A program made the translations under genes and the position numbers. A stretch of DNA of 35,375 nt, taken from NCBI GenBank assembly GCA_005887995.1, contig VBJD01000086.1:1-35375 (forward strand). The letters are read 5' to 3'. This stretch comes from Chloroflexota bacterium. GTDB taxonomy: Bacteria > Chloroflexota > Limnocylindria > P2-11E. The notes below the pieces were generated by a model. That model saw only the letters and a list, made by a program, of their open reading frames with translations. It was not told the DNA's origin and did no database searches. Shown here in pieces: positions 16,185 to 28,875 of this stretch; position 1 is the first letter of the stretch; the number at the start of each line of letters is the position of its first letter.

Positions 16185-16994
16185 TCACTCTCTCTGGAGC
16201 GGATGTAGGGCGACAACGAAGAACTCCAGCGCATCGCGGATCAGCTCGCGCGAGCGACCGTCGTCGTCGCGAACATCGAAGCCGTGCTGACCGGTCGGAT
16301 GGCGCTCGACACGAACATGCACACCGATCTCGCGTGCTCGCGCGGAGAACGCATCGGCACCGCTCACGAGCGCAGGGCTGTCGCGGTCCGCGATCGTTAC
16401 GAGGATAGGCGGGAGTCCCTTCGCCGAGCTGCCGAGCGCCGCCGTCGCCGACCATTCGTGGATCTCCTCATCCGTCACCGGCCGCGGAGACTCGTGCATG
16501 AACGCCAGGTCCCAGACCGTGTAGAAGCCCGCGATCGCCCGAACATACGCCGGTCGCTCACGAAGAAGCGGCGCGAGCGCGAACGCGCCAGCCGCGGAGA
16601 ACGCCCACACGCCAATGCGGTCCGGATCGACTCCCAGCTCGGCCGCGTGCTCGCGGACGTAGGTCATCGCCGCGCGCGCCTCAGCGGCGACCTCGAGCCG
16701 ACCCACCGTCCGCGTCGAGCGATGGTTGAACGGGATCCCGACGATGCGACGCGCGGCGAGGTGCTCGCCATATGAGTGATAGACGCCCCAGTCCTTGGCG
16801 TGCGTGATCACTGCTTCGTCGCCGTCACCGTTCACAAGCAGGACCGCTGGCCACGGCGGGTTTCCGGTCGACGGCTGGTATGCGTCGAGTTGGAGGTCGC
16901 CGCGGCTATCGGTCCCGTACACGAGGTCTCGCAGGACATGCGCCGCGGTGGGAGGCGGGAGCACCGTTGGCCTCGCGAGGATGTCGTCGGGCAC
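16185..16994 (-). CDS. Alpha/beta-hydrolase-fold protein
   Basis: The 269-residue protein has an alpha/beta hydrolase core. A probable oxyanion region is AVLLVNGDGDE at 50-60. The nucleophile elbow GVWAFSAAGAF at 128-138 has Ser133, though the usual GxSxG is altered to AxSxxG-like spacing. A later acidic residue is in TIADRDSPALV, and the catalytic His in GQHGFDV. It is the last gene of the leftward urate-degradation run, starting with GTG 2 nt after the urate oxidase stop. Its place suggests a hydrolytic step on a purine-derived compound such as a ureido product, but the fold alone does not show this. An unrelated esterase is equally possible. Confidence 0.75.
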   Translation of the reverse strand: MPDDILARPTVLPPPTAAHVLRDLVYGTDSRGDLQLDAYQPSTGNPPWPAVLLVNGDGDEAVITHAKDWGVYHSYGEHLAARRIVGIPFNHRSTRTVGRLEVAAEARAAMTYVREHAAELGVDPDRIGVWAFSAAGAFALAPLLRERPAYVRAIAGFYTVWDLAFMHESPRPVTDEEIHEWSATAALGSSAKGLPPILVTIADRDSPALVSGADAFSARAREIGVHVRVERHPTGQHGFDVRDDDGRSRELIRDALEFFVVALHPLQRE

Positions 16995-16996
16995 GC

Positions 16997-17845
16997 CTAC
17001 CGCCGCAGCACCAGGCCGATCTTGCCAAAGGTCTGTCGCGGCTCGGCGAACACGCGCACGTCGCCCTTGCCGTCGGCCACCTTGTCGGGCGTGTGGTTTT
17101 GAACGCTGAACTCGACGGCCGAGAGTGACGGGAATGTGTTGAGCAAGCGCTGACCCATCTCGTGCACGAGCTCCTGGATGGACTTGCTGTTGAAGTCGTG
17201 GAACGTGCGCTCCAGCGAACGCCGTATCTCGTCGACGCTCGCGTGCCCCGCGCCCTCCGCGGAGAAGGCGCGTGCATCCGCGTACTGCCAGTGCGCGTCC
17301 ATGACGACGGTGAGCGGACGGTCGCCCAGCTCGGGCAGCGTCGTGTACTGGTCGCGCGCGAAGGCGGCAAACGACGAGCCCGTGACCTTCAGCAAGCGCA
17401 TCCCTTCGATGCCACTGCGGGTGTGACTGATCGCAATGTCGCGGCCGTCGCGCGTGAAGTCGGCATGCGCGATGGCCATGTCGCCGCGCGTCATCCGGAA
17501 CACGACGTCGCTCGAACCGGCCTCGGCGTGGCCGGCATCGAGCGGGACCTCGGTTGCCGTCACGCGGATGCGCTCCATCTGCGGATACGTCGTGAGGAGC
17601 CTCCGGCCAACGAACGTGACGTACGCCTCGAGCGTGTGTCCACTGAACTCCGCGGCCGTCGCATACACGAAGTTCTTCATCGTGTCGGTCGCCACGACCT
17701 CGGTGTTGTCGCCCTCGGTGTAGGAGGCCTTGAAGCGCTCGCCGAAGACGTCGATGTCCACCGATGCGGCGAACGGTGGTTCCGAGCGCTTCGCGAGTCG
17801 GAAGAAGACGACGCGAGTCTTGCCGTAGCGGATCTCCATGGTCAT
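16997..17845 (-). CDS. pucL: Factor-independent urate oxidase (uricase)
   Basis: The 282-residue cofactor-free enzyme oxidises urate to 5-hydroxyisourate. The T-fold signature is clear. Lys9 is in RYGKTRV and Thr53 in VVATDTMKNFVYATA, the catalytic Lys/Thr pair. HTRSGIEGMRLLKVTGSSF and DQYTTLPELGDR, the substrate-binding region, lie in the middle. HDFNSKSIQELVHEMG and FSVQNHTPD, with the Asn/His pair, are near the C-terminus. Length is normal for bacterial uricases. The ATG overlaps the uraD stop by 4 nt, so the leftward run uraH-uraD-pucL carries urate straight through to (S)-allantoin. Confidence 0.95.
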   Translation of the reverse strand: MTMEIRYGKTRVVFFRLAKRSEPPFAASVDIDVFGERFKASYTEGDNTEVVATDTMKNFVYATAAEFSGHTLEAYVTFVGRRLLTTYPQMERIRVTATEVPLDAGHAEAGSSDVVFRMTRGDMAIAHADFTRDGRDIAISHTRSGIEGMRLLKVTGSSFAAFARDQYTTLPELGDRPLTVVMDAHWQYADARAFSAEGAGHASVDEIRRSLERTFHDFNSKSIQELVHEMGQRLLNTFPSLSAVEFSVQNHTPDKVADGKGDVRVFAEPRQTFGKIGLVLRR

Positions 17846-18297
17846 CGCGCCTCGGCCCGCGCTTTCCGGAGCCGATCGAGCGAGATCGCGAGGAACGCGT
17901 CGATGCCGGCACGCAGCTCAGCGTGGCGCGAGCGCGTCAGACGTTCGCGAAGCACCGGCAGCAGCTGCTCCTTCGAGCGGCCGGCGACGAACACGACGAA
18001 GCGGAACCCGAATGCGCGCTCGTACTGCGCCTGCAGCGTCATGAGCTCACGAAGGACGCTGGCCTCGGCTTCGGCGCCCTGCTCACGGCGCGACGGCTCG
18101 GACAGCGTGCTCACGGGCGCGCCGATGCGTGGATGCGCCTCGAGGATCGCGATCTGATCCGTTTCCGGCAGCTCCTCGATGATCACGCGCGTCTTCTCGA
18201 CGACATCCTCGGGCGAGTCGTCGGCCGTGAGCCGCGGGATGAGGCGCTCGAGCAGCGTCGGACTGCGTTCGAAGACGCTTCGCAGATCGTCGCTCAC
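17842..18297 (-). CDS. uraD: OHCU decarboxylase
   Basis: The 151-residue all-helical enzyme decarboxylates 2-oxo-4-hydroxy-4-carboxy-5-ureidoimidazoline to (S)-allantoin. The catalytic His55 is in EAHPRIGA, followed by a Ser/Glu-Gln turn (SRREQG) and the family's YERAFGFRFVVFVAGRSKE segment near 93-110. It is a stand-alone protein of normal length, not fused to uraH or uricase as in some bacteria. The GTG start lies 6 nt after the uraH stop, and its TGA overlaps the uricase ATG. Confidence 0.92.
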   Translation of the reverse strand: MSDDLRSVFERSPTLLERLIPRLTADDSPEDVVEKTRVIIEELPETDQIAILEAHPRIGAPVSTLSEPSRREQGAEAEASVLRELMTLQAQYERAFGFRFVVFVAGRSKEQLLPVLRERLTRSRHAELRAGIDAFLAISLDRLRKARAEAR

Positions 18298-18303
18298 GCG
18301 CGC

Positions 18304-18618
18304 TCAGCTTCCCCTGTACGACGTGATGCCGAATCGCGACAGCAGCAGCGGCACGTGCGTATGTCCCTCGGGCAGATTCACGTCCAGCGTCACCTGCACG
18401 AAGAACACGTCGGGCGCGTACTCGCGTGTCTCGAACACGATGCGATACACGCCGGGCTCGAGATCGCGCGCGAGCTCGCGGACGCGACCATCGCCATCGG
18501 TCTTGCCCGTCGCGATCACTTTCGCGTCGCGCTGCGTCTCGAGACGCACGCGAAGACCCGCTGCGGGCTTGCCTGTCGTCGTATCGAGCACGTGCGTCGA
18601 GAGCGATCCCTTCGCCAT
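18304..18618 (-). CDS. uraH: 5-hydroxyisourate hydrolase
   Basis: The 104-residue transthyretin-like enzyme hydrolyses 5-hydroxyisourate to OHCU. It has the family signatures: LSTHVLDTTTGKPA at the N-terminus (catalytic His9), TDGDGR in the middle (Arg45 region), and the C-terminal HTHVPLLLSRFGITSYRGS ending in the diagnostic YRGS tetrapeptide. Length matches free-standing HIU hydrolases. The ATG at 18618 starts 9 nt after a TACGAT -10 on this strand. It is the first gene of the leftward urate run and is divergent from the DUF3830 gene across only 23 bp. Confidence 0.95.
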   Translation of the reverse strand: MAKGSLSTHVLDTTTGKPAAGLRVRLETQRDAKVIATGKTDGDGRVRELARDLEPGVYRIVFETREYAPDVFFVQVTLDVNLPEGHTHVPLLLSRFGITSYRGS

Positions 18619-18626
18619 CGGCGGCG

Positions 18627-18633
18627 TATCGTA
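18627..18633. promoter_or_regulatory. Symmetric bidirectional -10 element of the purine-catabolism divergon
   Basis: Only 23 bp separate the uraH ATG (-) from the DUF3830 ATG (+). TATCGT (18627-18632) on the + strand and TACGAT (18633-18628) on the - strand overlap by five bases. Each lies exactly 9 nt before its start codon. Both mRNAs would be leaderless, and the two directions would compete for one melting site. Any -35 or activator site must lie inside the coding sequences. Confidence 0.6.
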
Positions 18634-18641
18634 CGCCCGCT

Positions 18642-19058
18642 ATGCGCATGCTTCGCATCACCGCGGGCAAGTACACGTTCAAAGCGCGACTCGAAGAAGA
18701 GAAAGCACCGAAGACATGTGCCGCGATGCGCGCGATACTCCCGTTCCGAAGCAAGCTCGTGCACGTGCGCTGGAGCGGCGAGGCGACTTGGGTGCCGATG
18801 GGCGACCGGCGCCTCGGCATCGATTTCGAGAATCAGACGAGCCATCCCGCGCCCGGACAGGTGCTCGTGTATCCGGGCGGCATCTCGGAGATGGAGATCC
18901 TCTTCCCGTACGGCTCGACGCTCTTCGCGAGCAAGGTCGGGCAGCTCGCGGGCAATCACTTCGCGACCGTTGTCGAGGGCAACGAGAACCTCGCGGAGGT
19001 CGGCCGGCTCACGCTCTGGGAGGGCGCGCTCGACTTCGCGATCGACGAGATCGCATGA
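18642..19058 (+). CDS. DUF3830-family cyclophilin-like protein
   Basis: The 138-residue protein matches the DUF3830 pattern: RITAGKYTFKARLEEEKAPKTC near the start, FRSKLVHVRWSGEATWVPMG at about 35-54, then HPAPGQVLVYPGG and a C-terminal strand region. These are small cyclophilin-like barrels of unproven biochemical activity, often encoded beside amidohydrolases for purine or pyrimidine breakdown. That agrees with allantoinase following 21 nt downstream. ATG 18642 is chosen because TATCGT lies 9 nt before it; ATG 18648 is a close alternative. Confidence 0.82.
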   Translation: MRMLRITAGKYTFKARLEEEKAPKTCAAMRAILPFRSKLVHVRWSGEATWVPMGDRRLGIDFENQTSHPAPGQVLVYPGGISEMEILFPYGSTLFASKVGQLAGNHFATVVEGNENLAEVGRLTLWEGALDFAIDEIA

Positions 19059-19079: not shown

Positions 19080-20426
19080 ATGGCTGACCTTGCTATCCGC
19101 GGTGGGCGCGTCGTCCTCCACGACGCGGTGCGCGAGGTCGACGTCCTCATCCTCGCGGGATCGATCATCCGCATCGTCGCGCCGGGCGAGGGCGACGCGG
19201 CGGAGACGATCGATGCGCGCGGTCTCCTTGTGCTGCCCGGTGTCGTCGACGCGCACGTGCACGTTAACGAGCCGGGTCGCACAGAGTGGGAGGGCTGGGT
19301 CGCCGCGACGCGCGGTGCCGCGCGAGGCGGTGTGACAACGGTCGCGGATATGCCGCTCAACTCGATCCCACCGACGCTCGATGAGGCGGCGTTCGATGTG
19401 AAGGAAGCCGCGGCGTCGGCGGGCGCGCTCGTCGACTACGCGCTCTGGGGCGGTCTGGTGCGCGCCGATCCCGAGGCACTTCGCGCGCTCGCGGAGTGCG
19501 GCGTCGTGGGATTGAAGTGCTTCCTTTGCCCGAGCGGCGTCGACGAGTTCCCGCATCTCGACGATGACGAGCTGTTGCCGGCGCTCCGCGCGGCCACGAG
19601 GGCCGGGCTGCTCGTCGCGGCGCACTGCGAGGACGAGGGCATCGTCGCTCGCGCGACCGCCGAGGCACGCGGACGCGACCTTCGTGCCTGGCTCGAGTCG
19701 CGGCCCATCGATGCGGAGCGTGTCGCGATCGAGCGGTTCGCCGCCGCGGCGAAGGTCACGGGCGCGCGCGTCCACGTCGTGCACGTGTCGTCGGCCGACG
19801 GCATCGCCGCGGTCGCGCGAGCGCGGCGCGCGGGGCTGGACATCACCGCGGAGACTTGCCCGCACTACCTCGCGTTCGACGCCTCCGACCTCGATCTCGG
19901 GCCGCTCATCAAATGCGCACCGCCGATCCGCGCCGGCGCGCGCGCACGCCTGTGGGAGGACGTCCTCGCGGGGCACGTCGATCACATCGCCTCCGATCAT
20001 TCGCCCTGTACAGCGGAGCTGAAGACGCGCGGTAACGATGACGTCTTTGTGGCGTGGGGCGGGATCTCGGGCATTCAGTCCACACTTCCCCTGTTGTTGA
20101 GCGAAGGGATGAACGCTCGCGGCCTGCCCGCCGAGCTGCTCGCGCAGCTCCTCGCGACGCGTCCCGCGAAGCGGCTCGGGATCTGGCCGCGCAAAGGAGA
20201 GATCCGCGTCGGCACCGACGCCGACTTCGCGCTCGTCGATCCCGACCGCGGGTGGACGCTCGAACGCGAGGAGCTCGAGACCCGCAGCGGACTCTCACCG
20301 TACGCCGGCCGTCGGTTCCGCGGCGCGGTCGTGCGCACGATCGTGCGCGGCCGCACGGTCTACGCGGACGGCGAGATCACCGGCGCGCCCGGCGATGGCT
20401 GGTTCGTGCGCAGGCTCGTCGCGTGA
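19080..20426 (+). CDS. allB: Allantoinase
   Basis: The 448-residue cyclic amidohydrolase opens the hydantoin ring of allantoin to allantoate. DAHVHVNEPGRTEWEGW at 57-73 has the metal histidines His59/His61 and the allantoinase-specific NEPGRT. The carboxylated Lys146 is in GLKCFLCPSGVDEFP. HCEDEG, HVVHVSSADG, ETCPHYL and SDHSPC complete the binuclear site, and WGGISGIQSTLPLLL is diagnostic of allantoinase against dihydroorotase or hydantoinase. Unlike the pyrC of this window it keeps its full N-terminal sandwich (50 residues before the HxH). It sits between DUF3830 and allC in a rightward run. Confidence 0.96.
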   Translation: MADLAIRGGRVVLHDAVREVDVLILAGSIIRIVAPGEGDAAETIDARGLLVLPGVVDAHVHVNEPGRTEWEGWVAATRGAARGGVTTVADMPLNSIPPTLDEAAFDVKEAAASAGALVDYALWGGLVRADPEALRALAECGVVGLKCFLCPSGVDEFPHLDDDELLPALRAATRAGLLVAAHCEDEGIVARATAEARGRDLRAWLESRPIDAERVAIERFAAAAKVTGARVHVVHVSSADGIAAVARARRAGLDITAETCPHYLAFDASDLDLGPLIKCAPPIRAGARARLWEDVLAGHVDHIASDHSPCTAELKTRGNDDVFVAWGGISGIQSTLPLLLSEGMNARGLPAELLAQLLATRPAKRLGIWPRKGEIRVGTDADFALVDPDRGWTLEREELETRSGLSPYAGRRFRGAVVRTIVRGRTVYADGEITGAPGDGWFVRRLVA

Positions 20427-20433
20427 GTCAGCC

Positions 20434-21681
20434 ATGATGACGAGCGAGCTCGTCGCGATCGACGAGCGCCGTCTCCTGCGTCGCCTCGACGACCTCGCGC
20501 AGCGCGGAGCACTACCGAGCGGTGGCCTCTACCGCGCGCTCTACACCCCAGCGCACGTCGCGGCGACGGAGTTGTATGCCGACTGGTGCAAGGAGGCCGG
20601 GCTGCTCGTGCGCCGCGACGCAGTGGGGAACGTGTGGGGCCGCGTCGAAGGCTCGCGCGGCGGTCGCGCGATCGTGACCGGCTCGCACATCGACACGGTC
20701 CGCGGCGGCGGGGCGCTCGACGGCGCGCTCGGCGTCGTCGCGGGTCTCGAGGCCGTCGCGAGCCTCGTCGCGCAATTCGGCCGGCCGACGCGCATCCTCG
20801 AGTGCGTCGCGATCTGCGAGGAGGAGGGGAGCCGCTTCAGCACGAACTTCTGGGGCGCACGCGCGATCGCCGATCGTCTCGAACCTGACGAGGCGCAGCG
20901 CGCTCGCGACGCCGACGGCATCACGCTCGCGGACGCGATGCGCGGCGTCGGACTCGATCCGGCGAGGGCGTCGCAGGCGGTGCGCCGCGACATCGACAAC
21001 TTCGTTGAGCTGCACATCGAGCAGGGCCCGATCCTCGACGAGTCGAACGAACGCCTCGGCGTGGTCCGCACGATCGCGGGCACCGCACACCTCGAGGTGA
21101 CCGTGCGCGGCCAGGCGGATCACGCCGGCGCCGCGGCGATGGAGCGACGTCGCGATGCGTTGCTCGGCGCGGCCGCGATGACGCTCGCTATCGCGAAAGT
21201 CGCGACCGACATGGGTCCTCCGGCCGTCGCGACAGTGGGCACGATCGGCGTGGAGCCGGCGCAGGTCAACGTCGTTCCTGGTCTCGCGCGCTTCACGGTG
21301 GACGCGCGGCACAGCAGCGCAGCATTGCGGCTCGAGCTCATCGCCGAGATCGCGAAGGCGTGCAAGGTGATCGGACGCGAGCGCGAGCTCGCCGTAGACG
21401 TTCGCACGCTGCGTGACCGTCCGCCGGTCCAGTTGCATGAGCGGACGACGGACGCGCTGCGTCGCGCGGCGCGGGCCGCCGGCGTCGAGCCGCGTGAGAT
21501 GGTCAGCGGCGCGGGTCACGATTCGCAGATCCTCAGCGCTGCCGCGCACGCCGCGATGCTGTTCGTGCCGAGCATCGGCGGGCGCTCGCACCGCGCGGAC
21601 GAGGCGACCGCCGCGGAGGACGTGGTGCTCGGTACGCGCGTCCTCGCCACGGCGCTTCGCGACTTGGCGTACGCGGCATGA
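20434..21681 (+). CDS. allC: Allantoate amidohydrolase (M20 family, AllC/hydantoinase type)
   Basis: The 415-residue M20-family metallo-amidase has GSHIDTV with His85, GALDGALGV with Asp96, CEEEGSRF at 128-135, VELHIEQGP, the dimerisation segment RGQADHAGAAAMERRRD, and the C-terminal PSIGGRSHRADE with the last metal His. The subgroup contains allantoate amidohydrolases and N-carbamoyl-amino-acid hydrolases. The adjacent allantoinase makes the former far more likely, giving ureidoglycine or ureidoglycolate plus ammonia and CO2. ATG 20434 (or 20437) follows the allB stop by 7 nt. Confidence 0.9.
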   Translation: MMTSELVAIDERRLLRRLDDLAQRGALPSGGLYRALYTPAHVAATELYADWCKEAGLLVRRDAVGNVWGRVEGSRGGRAIVTGSHIDTVRGGGALDGALGVVAGLEAVASLVAQFGRPTRILECVAICEEEGSRFSTNFWGARAIADRLEPDEAQRARDADGITLADAMRGVGLDPARASQAVRRDIDNFVELHIEQGPILDESNERLGVVRTIAGTAHLEVTVRGQADHAGAAAMERRRDALLGAAAMTLAIAKVATDMGPPAVATVGTIGVEPAQVNVVPGLARFTVDARHSSAALRLELIAEIAKACKVIGRERELAVDVRTLRDRPPVQLHERTTDALRRAARAAGVEPREMVSGAGHDSQILSAAAHAAMLFVPSIGGRSHRADEATAAEDVVLGTRVLATALRDLAYAA

Positions 21682-21697: not shown

Positions 21698-23047
21698 ATG
21701 ACCTGGAACGTCGCGGCCGGTCCCATCAGCACCGTCATCCGCGGTGCGACGCTGCTGCCGCTCGTCGAGAGCGCGCGGGCACTGAGCGGCGACCTCGTCA
21801 TCTCCGGATCGCGGATCACGCACGTCGGCCCAAATGCGGCGATCCCACCGGGCGCGGACGTCCTCGAGCGTCGGGGGCACTACGTGATGCCGGGGCTCAT
21901 CCAGACGCACCTGCACCTGGTGCAGACGATCTTCCGCGGTCTCGCGGAGGACCTCACGCTCCTCGACTGGCTGCGTCGACGTATCTGGCCGCTCGAGGCT
22001 GCGCACGACGCCGACTCCGTCCGCGCGAGCGTGCGGCTCGGCCTGGTCGAGGTGCTTGGGACCGGGACGACGACGATCGTCGACATGGGCACGACGAAAC
22101 ACGGCGATGTAGTCGGCGAGGAGCTCGTCCGCTCAGGCATCCGCGCGTTGTTCGGTCAGGCGATGATGGACACGGGCGAGGGTGCGCCGCCCGAGCTGCT
22201 CGAGACGACGCGCGCATCGCTCGATGCGAGCGCGGCGCTGCACAAACGCTGGCACAAGTCGGGCAACGGTCGCATCCAGTACGCGTACTCGCCGCGGTTC
22301 GCCCTCTCGTGCACGCGCGAGCTGCTCGAGGCCGTCGGCACGCTCGCGAAGATGAACGACGTCGCAATCCACACCCACACGAACGAGGATCCCGCGGAAC
22401 GCGCCGCCATCCAGGCCGCGACGGGTCGCGCTCCGATCACGTATCTCGCGGAGATGGGCATCGCGTCGGAGCGCACGGTCGCCGCGCACGGCGTGCACGT
22501 CGATGATGCCGAGCTCGCGACGCTGCGCGAGACGCGCACCGCGATCACGCACTGCCCGACGTCGAACCTCAAACTCGGCGCCGGCATCGCAGATGTCGTG
22601 CGATTGCGCGGGAGCCGCGTGACCGTCGGCCTCGGCGCGGACGGGGCGGCGTGCAACAACCGTCTGGATGGATTTGAGGAAGCCCGCATCGCTTCGCTGC
22701 TCGCGCGCAGCCTGCACGGCCAGCGGGCGCTCACCGCGAGCGACGCCCTCCTCATGGCGACGCGTGACGGCGCGCGCGCGCTGCACCTCGACGAGGAGCT
22801 CGGCACGCTCGAGCCCGGTAAGCGCGCCGACCTCATCGTGCTGGACGCCGGCCGCCTCGCCGGTCCGATGGGCGATCCCGCGACGCGCATCCTGTTCGGC
22901 GGTGGTGGACGAGCCGTGCGAGACGTGTTCGTGGACGGGGTCGGCATCGTGCGGGACGGCACGGTGCGCACCATCGACGCCGCCGAAGCGCGCGCGAAGG
23001 CTTTCGAGGCGACGACCGCGCTGATGCAGCGCGCTTCGCTCGCTTGA
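21698..23047 (+). CDS. Amidohydrolase, nucleobase/nucleoside deaminase-like (ATZ/TRZ/MtaD type)
   Basis: The 449-residue metal-dependent hydrolase has THLHLVQTIFRGLAEDLTLL at 70-89 (His71, His73) and DWLRRRIWPLE. AIHTHTNED carries His225/His227 and Glu230. AAHGVHV has His264, HCPTSNLKLGAG has His285, and LGADGAACNN has Asp315. This subgroup includes guanine, 8-oxoguanine, adenosine, S-adenosylhomocysteine/MTA deaminases and triazine hydrolases. Beside xanthine dehydrogenase and urate genes, guanine deaminase (giving xanthine) would fit best, but the IWPLE segment is more MtaD-like, so the substrate is open. It starts 16 nt after allC, preceded by AAGGCGG. Confidence 0.82.
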   Translation: MTWNVAAGPISTVIRGATLLPLVESARALSGDLVISGSRITHVGPNAAIPPGADVLERRGHYVMPGLIQTHLHLVQTIFRGLAEDLTLLDWLRRRIWPLEAAHDADSVRASVRLGLVEVLGTGTTTIVDMGTTKHGDVVGEELVRSGIRALFGQAMMDTGEGAPPELLETTRASLDASAALHKRWHKSGNGRIQYAYSPRFALSCTRELLEAVGTLAKMNDVAIHTHTNEDPAERAAIQAATGRAPITYLAEMGIASERTVAAHGVHVDDAELATLRETRTAITHCPTSNLKLGAGIADVVRLRGSRVTVGLGADGAACNNRLDGFEEARIASLLARSLHGQRALTASDALLMATRDGARALHLDEELGTLEPGKRADLIVLDAGRLAGPMGDPATRILFGGGGRAVRDVFVDGVGIVRDGTVRTIDAAEARAKAFEATTALMQRASLA

Positions 23048-23101: not shown

Positions 23102-23980
23102 ATGCCCGTGCAGGTCGTGCGACATCTGGACGAGGCGCTCGACGCGCTCGCAGCGATGCCGCGCGCGGAACCGATCGCCGGCGGAACCGATCTGATGGTC
23201 GAGATCAACTTTGGGCGGCGGCGCGTCTCCGATGTCGTCGCGATCGACCGCGTCGACGAGCTCAAAGAGCTGCGCACCGGGCGAGAGTTTCGCGTCGGAG
23301 CGGGAGGCGACACGCGCATCCGCGTCGGCGGCGGCGTCACCTACACGCAGCTGCTCACCGATGGCGCGGGCTCGGTCGCGCTCTGGGAAGCGTCGCGTAC
23401 GGTCGGCTCGCCGCAGATCCGGAACGCCGGGACGATCGGCGGCAATCTCGCGACGTCGTCGCCGGCCGGCGACACGTTGCCGGTGTTCGCTGCGCTCGAT
23501 GCGACGGTCGTGCTGCGCAGCCGCGAGGGCGAGCGACGCGTGAAGTTCGGCGAGTTCATGACTGGACCGAAGCGCAACGTGCGGAGACGGGATGAGCTCG
23601 TCCTCGCCGCGGAGTGGGACGACGCGGGCCCGGCGCAGACATTCATCAAGGTCGGGACGCGCAACGCGATGGTCATCGCGGTCGCGTCGCTCGCGTTCGT
23701 GATCGACGCTGCGCGCCGTCGCGTCGGCATCGCCCTGGGCTCGTGCGGGCCGACGATCATCCGGGCCGCGGATGCCGAGCGCTTCGCGCAGGGATGGCTC
23801 GAGGAGCGCGGGTGGGACCGGCCGCGGCGTCCGACAGAGGCCGAGCGTGGTGAGCTCGGTCGCCTTGTGGCCGCGGCCGCGCGGCCGATCGACGACGTAC
23901 GCGGCACCGCCGCGTATAGGCGTCACGTGCTCGCGGTCATCGCGGCGCGCGCGTTCGATCGGCTGGCGGTGATGACGTGA
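23102..23980 (+). CDS. xdhB: Xanthine dehydrogenase-type FAD-binding subunit
   Basis: The 292-residue FAD subunit of a xanthine-dehydrogenase-type molybdo-hydroxylase takes electrons from the iron-sulfur subunit to NAD or another acceptor. The FAD-binding AGGTDLMVEI is near 26-35. The family signature TVGSPQIRNAGTIGGNLATS is at about 100-119, followed by PAGDTLPVFAALDATVVL. A C-terminal CO-dehydrogenase-flavoprotein-like domain follows. It lacks the extra iron-sulfur binding seen in some 4-hydroxybenzoyl-CoA reductase homologues. The last bases overlap the GTG of the next subunit. Confidence 0.92.
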   Translation: MPVQVVRHLDEALDALAAMPRAEPIAGGTDLMVEINFGRRRVSDVVAIDRVDELKELRTGREFRVGAGGDTRIRVGGGVTYTQLLTDGAGSVALWEASRTVGSPQIRNAGTIGGNLATSSPAGDTLPVFAALDATVVLRSREGERRVKFGEFMTGPKRNVRRRDELVLAAEWDDAGPAQTFIKVGTRNAMVIAVASLAFVIDAARRRVGIALGSCGPTIIRAADAERFAQGWLEERGWDRPRRPTEAERGELGRLVAAAARPIDDVRGTAAYRRHVLAVIAARAFDRLAVMT

Positions 23981-24438
23981 GGATCCGCCTGCGCGTGAAC
24001 GGCACCGAGCGCAGCGTCGAGGCGCAGGATCACGAGAGCCTCCTCACGGTGCTGCGCGATGACCTCCGCCTCGCGGGGAGCAAGAACGCGTGCGAGCAGG
24101 GCGAGTGCGGCTCGTGCTCGGTGCTCATGGACGGAGAGCTCGTGTGCGCGTGCCTCGTCCTCGCCGGCGCGGCCGCCGATCGCGAGGTCCGCACCGTCGA
24201 GTCGCTCGGGACCATGGAGCGGATGCATCCCGTGCAGCAGGCGTTCGTCGACGCGGGCGCGGTGCAGTGCGGCTTCTGCACGCCCGGCTTCGTGATCTCG
24301 ACGGTCGCGTTGTTGCGCGCGAATCCCGAGCCGAGCGACGCCGAGATAAAGGAGGCGCTCGCCGGGAACATCTGCCGCTGCACGGGGTACGGCAAGATCC
24401 TCGAGGCGGTGCATCGCGCCGCGGGGCAGCGAGTTTGA
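23977..24438 (+). CDS. xdhC: Xanthine dehydrogenase-type [2Fe-2S] subunit
   Basis: The 153-residue subunit carries two [2Fe-2S] clusters. The plant-ferredoxin-like one is in CEQGECGSCSVLMDGELVCAC (from residue 39). The second, in the helical domain, uses CGFCTPG and CRCTGYG. The spacing is that of all XdhC/CoxS-type proteins, and the length is typical. GTG 23977 overlaps the FAD subunit stop (GTGA). The stop overlaps a TTG start of a GNAT gene, which separates it from the molybdenum subunit. Confidence 0.95.
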   Translation: MRIRLRVNGTERSVEAQDHESLLTVLRDDLRLAGSKNACEQGECGSCSVLMDGELVCACLVLAGAAADREVRTVESLGTMERMHPVQQAFVDAGAVQCGFCTPGFVISTVALLRANPEPSDAEIKEALAGNICRCTGYGKILEAVHRAAGQRV

Positions 24439-24848
24439 GCGTTTCCGTCCGGGTCGCGACGACGCATGAACGGCAGGCGGCAGAGGCGTTCTACCGCACG
24501 GAGCTGCGCCGCGACGTTCCGCTTCAAGATGACCAGGAGGTGATCGTCGCGTGCGACGGCGACACCGTCGTCGGCGCCTTGAGGTTGTGTCCTGAGGCCG
24601 GGACGCTCCTGCTCCGGACCGTCGTGGTGGCCTCGGAGCGCCGCGGGTCCGGTGTCGGCCGCGCGCTTTTGCGCGAGGCATCCCGGGCGATCGGCCGTCG
24701 CGAGTGCTGGTGCTTTCCCTGGTCGTATCTCGACGAGTTCTACGCGGGGATCGGGCTCGTTCGCGTCCCAGAGACGCGCGTGCCCGCCGCCTTGCGCCAT
24801 CGCATGGACGACGGGTGCATCGCGACGTACCGGGCGGCTCGCCCATGA
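24435..24848 (+). CDS. GNAT-family N-acetyltransferase inserted in the xdh operon
   Basis: The 137-residue protein has the GNAT acetyl-CoA core: a strand TLLLRTVVVA followed by SERRGSGVGRALLREA (the Q/RxxGxG/A pyrophosphate loop) near 72-92, preceded by VGALRLCPEAG. The substrate is unknown. The TTG at 24435 overlaps the [2Fe-2S] subunit stop, and its own TGA overlaps the ATG of the molybdenum subunit. It is therefore fully coupled in translation with the dehydrogenase, which argues for a functional link such as modifying the enzyme or a purine-derived amine. That link is inference. Confidence 0.82.
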   Translation: MSVSVRVATTHERQAAEAFYRTELRRDVPLQDDQEVIVACDGDTVVGALRLCPEAGTLLLRTVVVASERRGSGVGRALLREASRAIGRRECWCFPWSYLDEFYAGIGLVRVPETRVPAALRHRMDDGCIATYRAARP

Positions 24849-27136
24849 CGCTCGCGCCACCGCGCACAAGGCTTCGCGGCGTCGTCGGCGAGTCCGCGCC
24901 GCGCAGCGATGCACCACCGAAGACACAGGGGTCGTTCGAGTACGCGAGTGACCTCGCGCGCGACGGGATGCTCCACGGCGCAACCGTCCGCAGCCCGCAC
25001 GCACGCGCACGCATCGTGCGCATCGACACGTCCGCGGCGCGCGCGATGCCAGGCGTCGTCGCAGTGCTTACGAGCGCGGATCTTCCAACGGACGAGCTCT
25101 TCGGACTCATGCGCCGCGATCAGCTGGTGCTCGCGCGCGGTGAGGTGCGCTATGTCGGCGAGCCGGTCGCCCTCGTCGCGGCTGAAGACACCGAGCAGGC
25201 TCGTCTCGCGACGAAGGCCGTGAAGGTCGAGTACGAGCCGCTCCCCGCGGTCACCGACCCCGTCGCCGCGCTGCAATCTGGCGCGCCGCAGCTGCATTCG
25301 TTCGGGAACGTCATCGAGGACGTCCGTGTCGTTCACGGCGACCCGAAGGCGAAGGCCGACATTGTCGTGAGCGGCGAGTACGAGATCGGCATGCAGGATC
25401 AGGCGCCGCTCGGGCCCGAGGCCGGACTTGCGATCCCCGACGCGGACGGTGGCGTGACGCTGCACATCGCGACGCAGTGGATGCACGAGGACCTCGGGCA
25501 GATCGCGCCCTGCCTCGGGCTGCCGCGCGAGAAGGTGCGCCTCGTGCTCGCCGGCGTCGGCGGCGCGTTCGGCGCGCGCGAGGACGTGACGCTGCAGATC
25601 CATCTCTGCCTCCTCGCCCTTGCGACGCGGAAGCCGGTGCGCATGGTCTACGGGCGCGAGGAGTCGTTCTACGGTCACGTGCACCGCCACCCCGCGCGGC
25701 TCTGGTACGAGCACGGCGCGAAGCGCGATGGCACGCTCGTCTATGTCCGCGCGACGATCGTCCTCGACGGCGGCGCGTACGCGTCGTCGAGCCCGGCGGT
25801 CGTCGCGAACGCGGCGTGCTTCGGCGCCGGTCCGTATCGCGTCCCGAACGCTGTGATACACGCGGTCGGTGCGTATACCGACAACCCTCCGACCGGTGCG
25901 ATGCGCGGGTTCGGCGCGGTGCAGTCGTGCTTCGCGTACGAGGCGCAGATGGATAGGCTCGCGAAGGCACTCGGCATGGATCCGGTAGAGCTACGTGCGA
26001 AGAACGCGCTGCGTGACGGCGACGAGATCATCACCAGCCAGCCGGTCGAGGGGAGCGAGCCGGTCGCGAACCTGATCCGCCGCTGCGCGGCAATGCGCTC
26101 GCCGGGCGAGCCCGACACGAGCGACCCGGCGGCGATGCCGGGCGGCGTCGGCAACATCACGCGCGGCGAGGGAGTGCGGCGAGGGACCGCGCTGGCGGCG
26201 GGCTTCAAGAACGTCTGCTACTCGCACGGGTTCGATGACTACTCGACCGCGCGCGTGCGTCTCGTCCGGGAACGCGGCGAGCCCGTCGCGTACGTCCTCA
26301 CCGCGGCGGCCGAGGTGGGGCAGGGGATCGTGCTCGTGTGCGAGCAAATCGCTCGCAGCGTCCTCGAGGTCCAGCGCGTCGTCGTGGAGACGCCGAACAC
26401 GAGCATCGACTCGGCGGGATCGTCGTCCGCATCGCGCCAGACGTGGATGACCGGCGGTGCCGTCCTCGCCGCGTGCCGCGAGGTGCGTACCGAGCTCGAA
26501 CGACGGGCGAAGGCGCGCGGCCGCGCGCTCGAGGACTTCGAGGTCGCGGATCTTCTCGATGAGCCCATCGAGCGCACCGTCAAGCACCGCCATCGTCCCA
26601 CGGAGGCGCGCAACGAGACGACGCAGAACCACGGACATGTCGCGTTCCTCTTCGCGGCTCATCGCGCGACCGTCGACGTCGATGTCGAGACCGGCCTCGT
26701 GAAGGTCGTGCAGGTCGCGACCTCGCAGGACGTGGGGAAGGCGATCAACCCTGTCGCCGTCGTCGGCCAGCTCGAGGGCGGCATCGCGCAGGGGCTCGGC
26801 CTCGCGGTCATGGAGGAGCTGCAGCTGCGCGACGGTCAGATCCGCAATGCGTCGTTCACCGACTACCTGCTGCCGACGATGCTCGACATGCCGCCGGTCG
26901 TGTGCGACATCGTCGAGCACCCGCACCGCGACGCACCGTTCGGCGCAAAGGGCGTCGGCGAGCCGCCAACGATCTCGAGCACGCCCGCGATCGTCGCCGC
27001 GATCCGCGCCGCGACCGGTCGCGAGCTCAACCGCGTGCCGGTCCGTCCCGACGACATCGTGTTCGGCACCGTCGCGCGCTCGGGCTGGCGCGTCACGCCG
27101 GGCGACGATCCGCGAAAGGCCGCACGCACCGAATGA
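24845..27136 (+). CDS. xdhA: Xanthine dehydrogenase-type molybdopterin-binding subunit
   Basis: The 763-residue catalytic subunit hydroxylates purines or related heterocycles at the molybdenum centre. Motifs in order are VRYVGEPVALVAAE (101-114), QWMHEDLGQIAPCLGLP, the cofactor loop GVGGAFGARED at 237-247, GAMRGFGAVQSCFAYE at 351-366 (Arg354), AEVGQGIVLVCEQ at 489-501, and GAKGVGEPP with the base Glu706. Substrate-pocket residues cannot be assigned confidently, so hypoxanthine, xanthine or another heterocycle remain possible; the urate genes favour xanthine. ATG 24845 overlaps the GNAT stop. The TGA lies inside the stem of a strong hairpin. Confidence 0.92.
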   Translation: MTLAPPRTRLRGVVGESAPRSDAPPKTQGSFEYASDLARDGMLHGATVRSPHARARIVRIDTSAARAMPGVVAVLTSADLPTDELFGLMRRDQLVLARGEVRYVGEPVALVAAEDTEQARLATKAVKVEYEPLPAVTDPVAALQSGAPQLHSFGNVIEDVRVVHGDPKAKADIVVSGEYEIGMQDQAPLGPEAGLAIPDADGGVTLHIATQWMHEDLGQIAPCLGLPREKVRLVLAGVGGAFGAREDVTLQIHLCLLALATRKPVRMVYGREESFYGHVHRHPARLWYEHGAKRDGTLVYVRATIVLDGGAYASSSPAVVANAACFGAGPYRVPNAVIHAVGAYTDNPPTGAMRGFGAVQSCFAYEAQMDRLAKALGMDPVELRAKNALRDGDEIITSQPVEGSEPVANLIRRCAAMRSPGEPDTSDPAAMPGGVGNITRGEGVRRGTALAAGFKNVCYSHGFDDYSTARVRLVRERGEPVAYVLTAAAEVGQGIVLVCEQIARSVLEVQRVVVETPNTSIDSAGSSSASRQTWMTGGAVLAACREVRTELERRAKARGRALEDFEVADLLDEPIERTVKHRHRPTEARNETTQNHGHVAFLFAAHRATVDVDVETGLVKVVQVATSQDVGKAINPVAVVGQLEGGIAQGLGLAVMEELQLRDGQIRNASFTDYLLPTMLDMPPVVCDIVEHPHRDAPFGAKGVGEPPTISSTPAIVAAIRAATGRELNRVPVRPDDIVFGTVARSGWRVTPGDDPRKAARTE

Positions 27137-27182: not shown

Positions 27183-27875
27183 TTACTGCTGAAGGTCGCC
27201 GTCGCCGGTCGAGACGTTCTCGGGACCCGCGTTGTCATCGCCGCTGTAGGTGTGCGCCGGCATGGTGCCGTCGTTGTCACCGATCCACGTCGGGGCCACG
27301 TCTCGCGGCTCGCTGCCGCTGGCTGTGAGCGAGTTGAACGATTCCTCGGCCGAGCCATCGATCGGCGCGGCGTGCGTCGCTGCGGCGGTGTCGCCGATCC
27401 AGACAGGCTCGCTGTCGCGCGGCTCTGAACCGCCCGTCGTGTAGGCGAGGTTCCGGTCGACCGCGTCGGGCGATTGCACGCCACTCCCGGTCGCCAGCGG
27501 GTCGCTGATGATCGCGGCATTGCGCTCCGCCGCATCCGGCGTCTGGATGACCTTCGTGCCACCATCGCCGATCCACATCGGCGCGACATCGCGCGGCTCG
27601 CCGGTCACCACGTACGAGTCGCGGAGCGCGCCACCCTCCGAGGTGATCGTCGGGGTGCCGAGCGCTCCCTGTTCGATCGTGAACATCTTGCTCATCCGCG
27701 TGTCGACCCCGAACGCCGTGAGCTTGCCCGCGTCGCGGCTGCGCAGCGCGCCGATCTCATCCGGCGTCAGCGTGTAGCCGCGGAGCGCACTGTCGGCATC
27801 CGTGGTCAGCTGGCGGCGGAAGGCCGCGTCATTGATGGACCGCTGGACCACTTTGACCAGCTCTTGCTTCGACAT
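27183..27875 (-). CDS. Repeat protein 1 with NHLP/Nif11-like leader domain
   Basis: Residues 1-70 of this 230-residue protein form a helical domain (KVVQRSINDAAFRRQL, then LRGYTLTPDEIGALRSRDAG). It resembles leader domains of NHLP/Nif11/Os1348-type RiPP precursors, which carry an FRxxLxxD...LxGYxLTPxE pattern. The rest is low-complexity and Cys-free. It has three PRDxxPxWIGD motifs (94-104, 152-162, 190-200) and two PDAxxRN motifs (113-119, 136-142), ending STGDGDLQQ. There is no signal peptide. ATG 27875 is set by AGGGAGGG seven nt upstream. Paralogues are at 28060-28875 and 29839-30657. It could be a precursor peptide, a secreted repeat protein or a scaffold; I do not know its function. Confidence 0.75.
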   Translation of the reverse strand: MSKQELVKVVQRSINDAAFRRQLTTDADSALRGYTLTPDEIGALRSRDAGKLTAFGVDTRMSKMFTIEQGALGTPTITSEGGALRDSYVVTGEPRDVAPMWIGDGGTKVIQTPDAAERNAAIISDPLATGSGVQSPDAVDRNLAYTTGGSEPRDSEPVWIGDTAAATHAAPIDGSAEESFNSLTASGSEPRDVAPTWIGDNDGTMPAHTYSGDDNAGPENVSTGDGDLQQ

Positions 27876-27911
27876 TTCTTTGCCCTCCCTGTTGCCTTGG
27901 GCGTCAGTCTT

Positions 27912-27925
27912 CACCCAGACGGGTG
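27912..27925 (-). promoter_or_regulatory. CACCC-N4-GGGTG dyad upstream of repeat protein 1
   Basis: CACCC (27912-27916) and GGGTG (27921-27925) lie 36 nt before the start codon. The surrounding 23 bp share 19 identical positions with the element 35 nt before the paralogue at 28875. This may be an operator or a 5'-UTR hairpin. Confidence 0.45.
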
Positions 27926-27955
27926 AGCCTTCGTCCACGCGGGTATCCCCGCCAA

Positions 27956-27971
27956 TGTCATCGTCGTTACC
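27956..27971 (-). promoter_or_regulatory. Weak CRP-like dyad upstream of repeat protein 1
   Basis: TGTCATCGTCGTTACC (+ strand) shares the GTNAT-N4-RTWAC pattern of the sites at 28955 and 30745. It lies 80 nt before the start, the same distance as in the paralogue. By itself the match is poor; the conserved placement is the support. Confidence 0.3.
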
Positions 27972-28008
27972 CAGCGCTGGCTTAACGCCCTCCAACGGCG
28001 CTCCTATG

Positions 28009-28059: not shown

Positions 28060-28875
28060 TTACTGCTGCAGGTTGCCGTCGCCCGTGGACAGGTCGCCGG
28101 TGCTGTCCGCCTCCGGCGAGCCGTCGATCGGCGCGGCGTGCGCGTCGAGCGGAGCGGCGGTGTCGCCGATCCACACTGGGTCGCTGTCGCGCGGCTCGGT
28201 ACCGCTGCCGGTGAAGGCCGCGTTGCGGTCCATGGCGTCGGGCGACTGCACGGCGCCGGTCGCCGCGTTGCCGAGGTCGCCGATCCAGACCGGGTCGCTG
28301 TCGCGCGGCTCCGCACCACCCGTGAAGGCCGCGTTGCGCTCCATGGCGTCGGGCGACTGCACGGCGCCGGTCGCCGCGTTGCCGAGGTCGCCGACCCAGA
28401 CCGGCTCGCTGTCGCGGGGCTCGGATCCGGTCGAAGAGACCGCGAGGTTGCGGTCGACTGCGTCAGGCGACTGCACGCTCGTGGCCGAGAGCTGCGGGTC
28501 CCCGATGATCGACGCGTTGCGCTCGGCCGCATCCGGTGTCTGGATGGCGCCGTGCGCGGCACCGTCGCCGACCCACACGGGGGCAGCGTCGCGCGGCCCG
28601 CCGCCGGTGACGGCCGCGTTGCCGATGGCGCCGCTCTCGGACGTGATCGTCGCGCTACCGAGAGCTCCCTGGTCGATCGCGAAGACCTTGCTCATTCGCG
28701 TGTCGACCCCGAACGCAGTGAGCTTGCCGGAGTCGCGGCTGCGCAGCGCGCCGACCTCGTCCGGCGTGAGCGAGTAGCCGCGGATCGCGTTGGCGGTGTC
28801 CGTCGTCAGCTGGCGGCGGAAGGCCGCATCGTTGATGGAACGCTGGACCACCTTGATCAGATCCTGCTTCGACAT
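28060..28875 (-). CDS. Repeat protein 2 with NHLP/Nif11-like leader domain
   Basis: The N-terminal 73 residues of this 271-residue protein are about 80 % identical to repeat protein 1 (MSKQDLIKVVQRSINDAAFR, then IRGYSLTPDEVGALRSRDSG). The remainder is Cys-free and built from PRDxxPVW(I/V)GD units near 94, 153, 190 and 228, alternating with PDAxxRN units near 114, 137, 175 and 212. It includes one near-perfect 37-residue duplication, and ends STGDGNLQQ. No signal peptide or membrane segment is seen. Strong AGGGAGGG lies 6 nt before the ATG. The leader-plus-repeats layout suggests a precursor whose repeats are modified or cleaved, but no modifying enzyme of a known RiPP class is in the window. 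Confidence 0.75.
   Translation of the reverse strand: MSKQDLIKVVQRSINDAAFRRQLTTDTANAIRGYSLTPDEVGALRSRDSGKLTAFGVDTRMSKVFAIDQGALGSATITSESGAIGNAAVTGGGPRDAAPVWVGDGAAHGAIQTPDAAERNASIIGDPQLSATSVQSPDAVDRNLAVSSTGSEPRDSEPVWVGDLGNAATGAVQSPDAMERNAAFTGGAEPRDSDPVWIGDLGNAATGAVQSPDAMDRNAAFTGSGTEPRDSDPVWIGDTAAPLDAHAAPIDGSPEADSTGDLSTGDGNLQQ
28211..28432 (-). repeat. Tandem 111-bp (37-aa) repeat inside repeat protein 2
   Basis: Two adjacent copies, 28211-28321 and 28322-28432, are nearly identical at the DNA level. They encode EPRDSxPVWxGDLGNAATG followed by AVQSPDAMxRNAAFTG. More diverged copies flank them. Identity this high points to recent unequal exchange. Confidence 0.8.

Follow-up and report, generated by a model that had tools for sequence, protein, structure and literature searches.

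The locus studied here raises the question of whether a gap of 23 bp between two divergent operons can hold the promoter of both within a single symmetric -10 element. The window, which is the whole 35,375-nucleotide stretch analysed, comes from an uncultured soil Chloroflexota bacterium, and both of the operons that diverge from the gap are devoted to purine breakdown. Their genes, together with the elements between them, are as follows.

16185-16994, minus strand: alpha/beta hydrolase, the final gene of the minus arm
16997-17839, minus strand: urate oxidase (pucL/uaZ; TIGR03383 above cut-off, PF01014)
17842-18297, minus strand: uraD, OHCU decarboxylase (PF09349, 7e-32)
18304-18618, minus strand: uraH, 5-hydroxyisourate hydrolase (PF00576, 3.8e-26; TIGR02962 above cut-off)
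18619-18627, minus strand: spacer between the minus-strand -10 candidate and the uraH ATG
18627-18633, both strands: symmetric box TATCGTA, a 7-base near-palindrome made up of overlapping -10 candidates that share the A2/T6 base pairs
18633-18641, plus strand: spacer ACGCCCGCT between the plus-strand -10 candidate and the DUF3830 ATG, with a widely kept GCCCGC core
18642-19058, plus strand: DUF3830 protein, the leading gene of the plus arm (PF12903, 3e-35)
19080-20426, plus strand: allantoinase allB (TIGR03178, 530.8 bits against a cut-off of 357.9)
20434-21681, plus strand: allantoate amidohydrolase-like gene (allC; NF006771, 404.6 bits against a cut-off of 399; under the AllC equivalog cut-off)
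21698-23047, plus strand: TRZ/ATZ-type amidohydrolase resembling purine/adenosine deaminases (top match NF005557, under its cut-off)
23102-27136, plus strand: xanthine dehydrogenase set, comprising the FAD subunit, the [2Fe-2S] subunit, a GNAT gene and the molybdopterin subunit

A preliminary description of this DNA had divided the arms into a urate branch and an allantoin branch of one pathway. The division is incomplete, and the single pathway stands: xanthine dehydrogenase and a purine-type deaminase are encoded in the plus arm as well, which makes the two arms one continuous purine pathway. Within the plus arm, the GNAT acetyltransferase gene (24435-24848) interrupts the xanthine dehydrogenase set, with the iron-sulfur subunit on one side and the molybdopterin subunit on the other. 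Two adjacent minus-strand genes (27183-27995 and 28060-28875) each encode a protein with an Os1348/NHLP-type RiPP precursor domain (NF038399); at about 270 amino acids, both are unusually large for precursor peptides.

The gap at 18619-18641 (CGGCGGCGTATCGTACGCCCGCT) separates uraH, with its ATG at 18618 on the minus strand, from the DUF3830 gene, with its ATG at 18642 on the plus strand. The hexamers TATCGT (plus strand, 18627-18632) and TACGAT (minus strand, 18633-18628) overlap, and each is separated by 9 nt from its ATG, as the preliminary description had placed them. Read as -10 elements on opposite strands, they have the arrangement of a symmetric bidirectional promoter, in which the -7T of one element pairs with the -11A of the other. 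The locus has no -35 element in either direction, neither strand of the gap carries a Shine-Dalgarno motif, as in leaderless genes, and the gap gave no Rfam match or structured leader.

Both start calls are trustworthy, because the uraH frame is closed by an in-frame TAG (18642-18640) immediately upstream of its ATG, the start positions are kept in relatives, and a second in-frame DUF3830 ATG, two codons downstream, is absent from eight of those relatives. The uraH start codon adjoins the box in relatives as ATG or GTG; DUF3830 begins with ATG in 20 of 21 and with GTG in one. The distance from the box to DUF3830 is 9 nt in 19 of 21 genomes (7 and 10 nt once each), and that to uraH is 9-12 nt in 20 relatives, most commonly 11. 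Conservation of spacing, which had been proposed as a check, is therefore close to complete on the plus side, while an exact 9/9 symmetry is confined to this genome and its nearest relatives.

A search of 28 genomes of the family for DUF3830 yielded a homologue in 21 of them, the window's own genome among these, and in 20 of these 21 it is divergently adjoined by uraH, the exception being locus L037. The relatives are mostly soil Chloroflexi MAGs. TATCGTA is intact in 19 of the 21 genomes. When the sequences are anchored on the box, T1, A2, T3, C4, T6 and C8 are identical in all 21, and G5 and A7 in 20. The two variants are TATCCTA in L037, which retains the symmetry of the key bases, and TATCGTG in L038, which removes T1 of the minus-strand hexamer; a GATAAT 6 nt before the L038 uraH ATG is a possible substitute. 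At fourfold-degenerate sites in the first 51 codons of DUF3830, the relatives match the window in about 50% of cases; where either sequence has A or T, the match falls to about 10%. It is unlikely that relatedness alone would have kept five A/T bases at 67% G+C, and by these comparisons the conservation of the box is beyond chance. The middle bases TCG and the GCCCGC spacer are conserved more than a TANNNT box needs; the spacer, within 18634-18641, is possibly a discriminator or an early-transcribed element.

Outside the family, no uraH was detected in the neighbourhood of the majority of distant DUF3830 loci. Gemmatimonadetes MAGs (L118-L119, L121-L127) have the divergent uraH/DUF3830 pair without a gap, and the TATCGTA box is absent from these loci. 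In L118 (3995-4003) the start codons of the pair share bases within CATG, which forces each promoter to lie within the opposite gene.

Leaderless mRNAs are, as judged from a 1.09-Mb sample of this genome (taken as stretches and annotated with a home-made gene finder), common, because TANNNT is sharply peaked 6-8 nt ahead of start codons. Before 252 divergent starts it occurs 15, 22, 21 and 7 times at 6, 7, 8 and 9 nt (65 in total), over a background of about one per position. Where divergent gaps measure 12-40 bp, half of the genes have TANNNT at 6-9 nt and 6% have a Shine-Dalgarno motif; in gaps longer than 40 bp the figures are 20% and 21%. No -35 signal was seen at the 137 leaderless-type -10s of the sample. 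The 9/9 spacing of the uraH/DUF3830 locus lies in the tail of this distribution and not at its peak, so leaders of 0-4 nt are likelier here than leaders of exactly 0. The earlier claim that both mRNAs are leaderless is thus upheld by the comparison in the form "leaderless or near-leaderless", and a leader of exactly 0 nt is the less likely case. Spacing beyond the 6-8 nt peak, extending in relatives to 12 nt for uraH, may mean short leaders of 1-6 nt.

The uraH/DUF3830 locus is, on the sequence evidence from this genome, one of a class, as the same layout recurs. Among 13 divergent pairs with gaps of 15-27 bp, seven have a TANNNT 6-10 nt from the start codon in each direction, against 0.04 expected after base-shuffling of the gaps. 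With one -10 granted and the rest shuffled, 1.2 second -10s are expected and seven are seen (tail 8e-6); without the locus under study the count is 6 of 12. These numbers refer to this genome, the same-genus genome G014 having given too few short gaps, and they leave out one pair (L193) that was dropped after retraining of the gene finder. Four of the seven pairs have the TANNNTA form found at uraH/DUF3830 and three have the form ANNNTANNNT. Geometrically these would correspond to the 18-bp and, for the second form more tentatively, the 23-bp spacings between transcription start sites that PMC12825309 gives among the common ones of bidirectional promoters in E. coli. The base that makes the symmetry, A7, is present in 8 of 21 -10s at short divergent gaps and in 8 of 116 others (Fisher p = 0.0005; p = 0.005 without the uraH/DUF3830 locus), in counts that are partly non-independent since each symmetric pair enters twice.

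A second member of this class is as well kept as the first. A 19-bp gap (L010, 6775-6793) separates an rpoN-like (sigma-54) gene from a divergent gene for a putative membrane protein; its box, TAAGGTA, is found in 20 of 21 family genomes (relatives L241-L261) and reads TAACGTA in the remaining one, and the two starts lie 7-9 and 6-12 nt from it. The symmetric box of a DAHP-synthase-like/gamma-carbonic-anhydrase-like pair is retained within the genus and, outside it, in just a single genome. The names of these two genes and of the rpoN partner rest on resemblance. Most of the other six two-strand pairs, these two among them, join genes without an obvious link.

Together, these observations lead us to favour, at a probability of roughly 0.8, the reading that TATCGTA is a -10-only bidirectional promoter, kept across the family, whose two mRNAs are leaderless or nearly so and which belongs to a recurring class. 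A symmetric -10 shared by both strands, as the preliminary description had proposed, is borne out by the family comparison, and its combination with near-leaderless genes on both sides is well supported at the level of sequence. Conservation of both -10s and of both start codons argues for transcription in both directions. For transcription itself, the start positions, the sigma factor, mutual exclusion and leaderless translation at this locus, we infer the following sequence of events. RNA polymerase with the main sigma factor would load on TATCGTA in either orientation, because -11A and -7T of one strand complement those of the other. Transcription would start about 7 nt downstream of each -10, a distance taken from a 7-bp rule for -10 to start site (PMC12825309), and hence 0-4 nt before the uraH and DUF3830 ATGs. 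The predicted plus-strand start is near 18639 (G18639 or A18642) and the minus-strand start near 18621-18622 (G18622, G18619 or A18618); with purines at these positions or at the ATGs themselves, leaders of 0-4 nt are expected, and on the uraH side they would reach about 6 nt in those relatives whose spacing is 11-12 nt. The geometry predicts start sites separated by 17-24 bp, within the 7-25 bp by which bidirectional promoters are recognised. The uraH-uraD-urate oxidase mRNA and the DUF3830-allB-allC-xanthine dehydrogenase mRNA would both be leaderless or nearly so, for which a Shine-Dalgarno sequence is unneeded. A change in the box would usually hit both operons, which would explain why it is kept across the family.

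Two polymerases would be unable to open TATCGTA simultaneously, since overlapping -10s cannot, by their geometry, be melted by both together. The preliminary description had concluded from this that mutually exclusive open complexes balance the two branches. Such competition, in which setting the ratio of the arms is the very purpose of the overlap, would be an addition to the bidirectional reading, and we regard it as unlikely. In E. coli, one side can repress the other when it is strongly activated, but at the five bidirectional promoters tested basal transcription did not reach a level at which competition would arise in the absence of such activation (Warman et al. 2026, PMC12825309). The plus arm, moreover, holds steps both before and after those of the minus arm. 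Since most other two-strand pairs in this genome drive genes without an obvious link, balancing does not account for the layout in general, and compact packing is a simpler account than balance within a pathway. It is plausible that one box co-supplies one pathway at uraH/DUF3830.

It is somewhat less likely still that the promoter works one way, with the box serving DUF3830 alone as its -10, symmetric by accident, and uraH transcribed from within the DUF3830 gene or from some other place. The near-fixed spacing on the plus side, which is nearer the genome peak than the variable 9-12 nt of the uraH side, would fit such an arrangement, as would the loss of T1 of the minus-strand hexamer in L038. 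Against it, A7 is required by the minus-strand -10 alone, yet is kept in 20 of 21 genomes, while only 7% of other leaderless -10s have an A there; the uraH start directly adjoins the box in relatives, and the rpoN pair has the same two-sided conservation. That GTATCGTAC, an imperfect 9-bp palindrome, is bound as an operator by a regulator of purine breakdown, perhaps atop a promoter function, is very improbable: although conservation of the central TCG and of the neighbouring C goes past what TANNNT requires, nine bases are short for an operator, one relative has TATCCTA, no regulator-like gene was found among those tested in both arms, and with only two sites in 3.02 Mb, the other without evident link, the sequence is too rare to define a regulon and was rejected as a regulon operator.

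Bidirectional promoters with symmetric -10 elements are themselves known, having reportedly been described by Warman et al. in Nat Microbiol in 2021. What would be new in the bidirectional promoter proposed here is that both sides are leaderless, that it consists of a -10 only, and that it is recurrent and conserved in a family. The reciprocal -7T/-11A arrangement is the commonest bidirectional configuration, and its 18-bp form has been described (PMC10268837). The uraH/DUF3830 box resembles the symmetric promoters of PMC12825309 and PMC10268837 in these reciprocal bases, in an expected start-site separation of about 18 bp and in having one short element per divergent pair. It differs from those of E. 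coli and Salmonella in its predicted 0-4 nt leaders and its lack of a -35, and leaderless pairs are unmentioned in the available parts of both papers.

The leaderless genes of Actinobacteria and Deinococcus-Thermus likewise have a TANNNT whose first T lies about 12 bp upstream of the start codon, lack a -35 consensus and need no Shine-Dalgarno sequence; unlike uraH and DUF3830, each is treated with its own -10 in what is available of these sources (PMC3160421, PMC3898074, PMC12340547). In Deinococcus, a -10 motif alone beside an ORF drives leaderless expression (PMC12340547). A further likeness is M. tuberculosis prpD (Rv1130)/Rv1129c, divergent neighbours whose leaderless mRNAs have both been mapped (PMC3898074). 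The two are not described as having a single symmetric -10 in common in that paper, which calls closely juxtaposed divergent promoters common in M. tuberculosis. The EcoRV restriction-modification system also has overlapping core promoters for two divergent genes, but it uses a control protein and its C transcript is not leaderless (PMC5333194). Among the open-access papers searched, we found no direct precedent for the combination of leaderless genes with bidirectional promoters.

Our data suggest that this Chloroflexota lineage is rich in leaderless genes, unlike the Chloroflexi of an early survey, which scored them as poor (4 of 12 genomes, 4.7%). Some Chloroflexota would then be leaderless-rich, which that survey (PMC3160421) did not find for the phylum. 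We also think it fairly probable that this family routinely packs its genes by means of overlapping -10 boxes (TANNNTA or ANNNTANNNT), a class undescribed as such, in which the box is the whole intergenic promoter of two leaderless operons, within gaps of 15-27 bp that have neither a -35 nor a Shine-Dalgarno sequence, and is near-invariant across the family in at least two cases, uraH/DUF3830 and rpoN. A recurring class of this kind separates packing from regulation as grounds for symmetric promoters. In leaderless genes the position of the -10 is tied to that of the start codon, so the symmetry of a promoter would be readable from genome sequence alone, and bidirectional promoters may thus be predictable in uncultured lineages without RNA data. 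If true, a 7-bp box running two operons would mark a natural lower limit for regulatory DNA.
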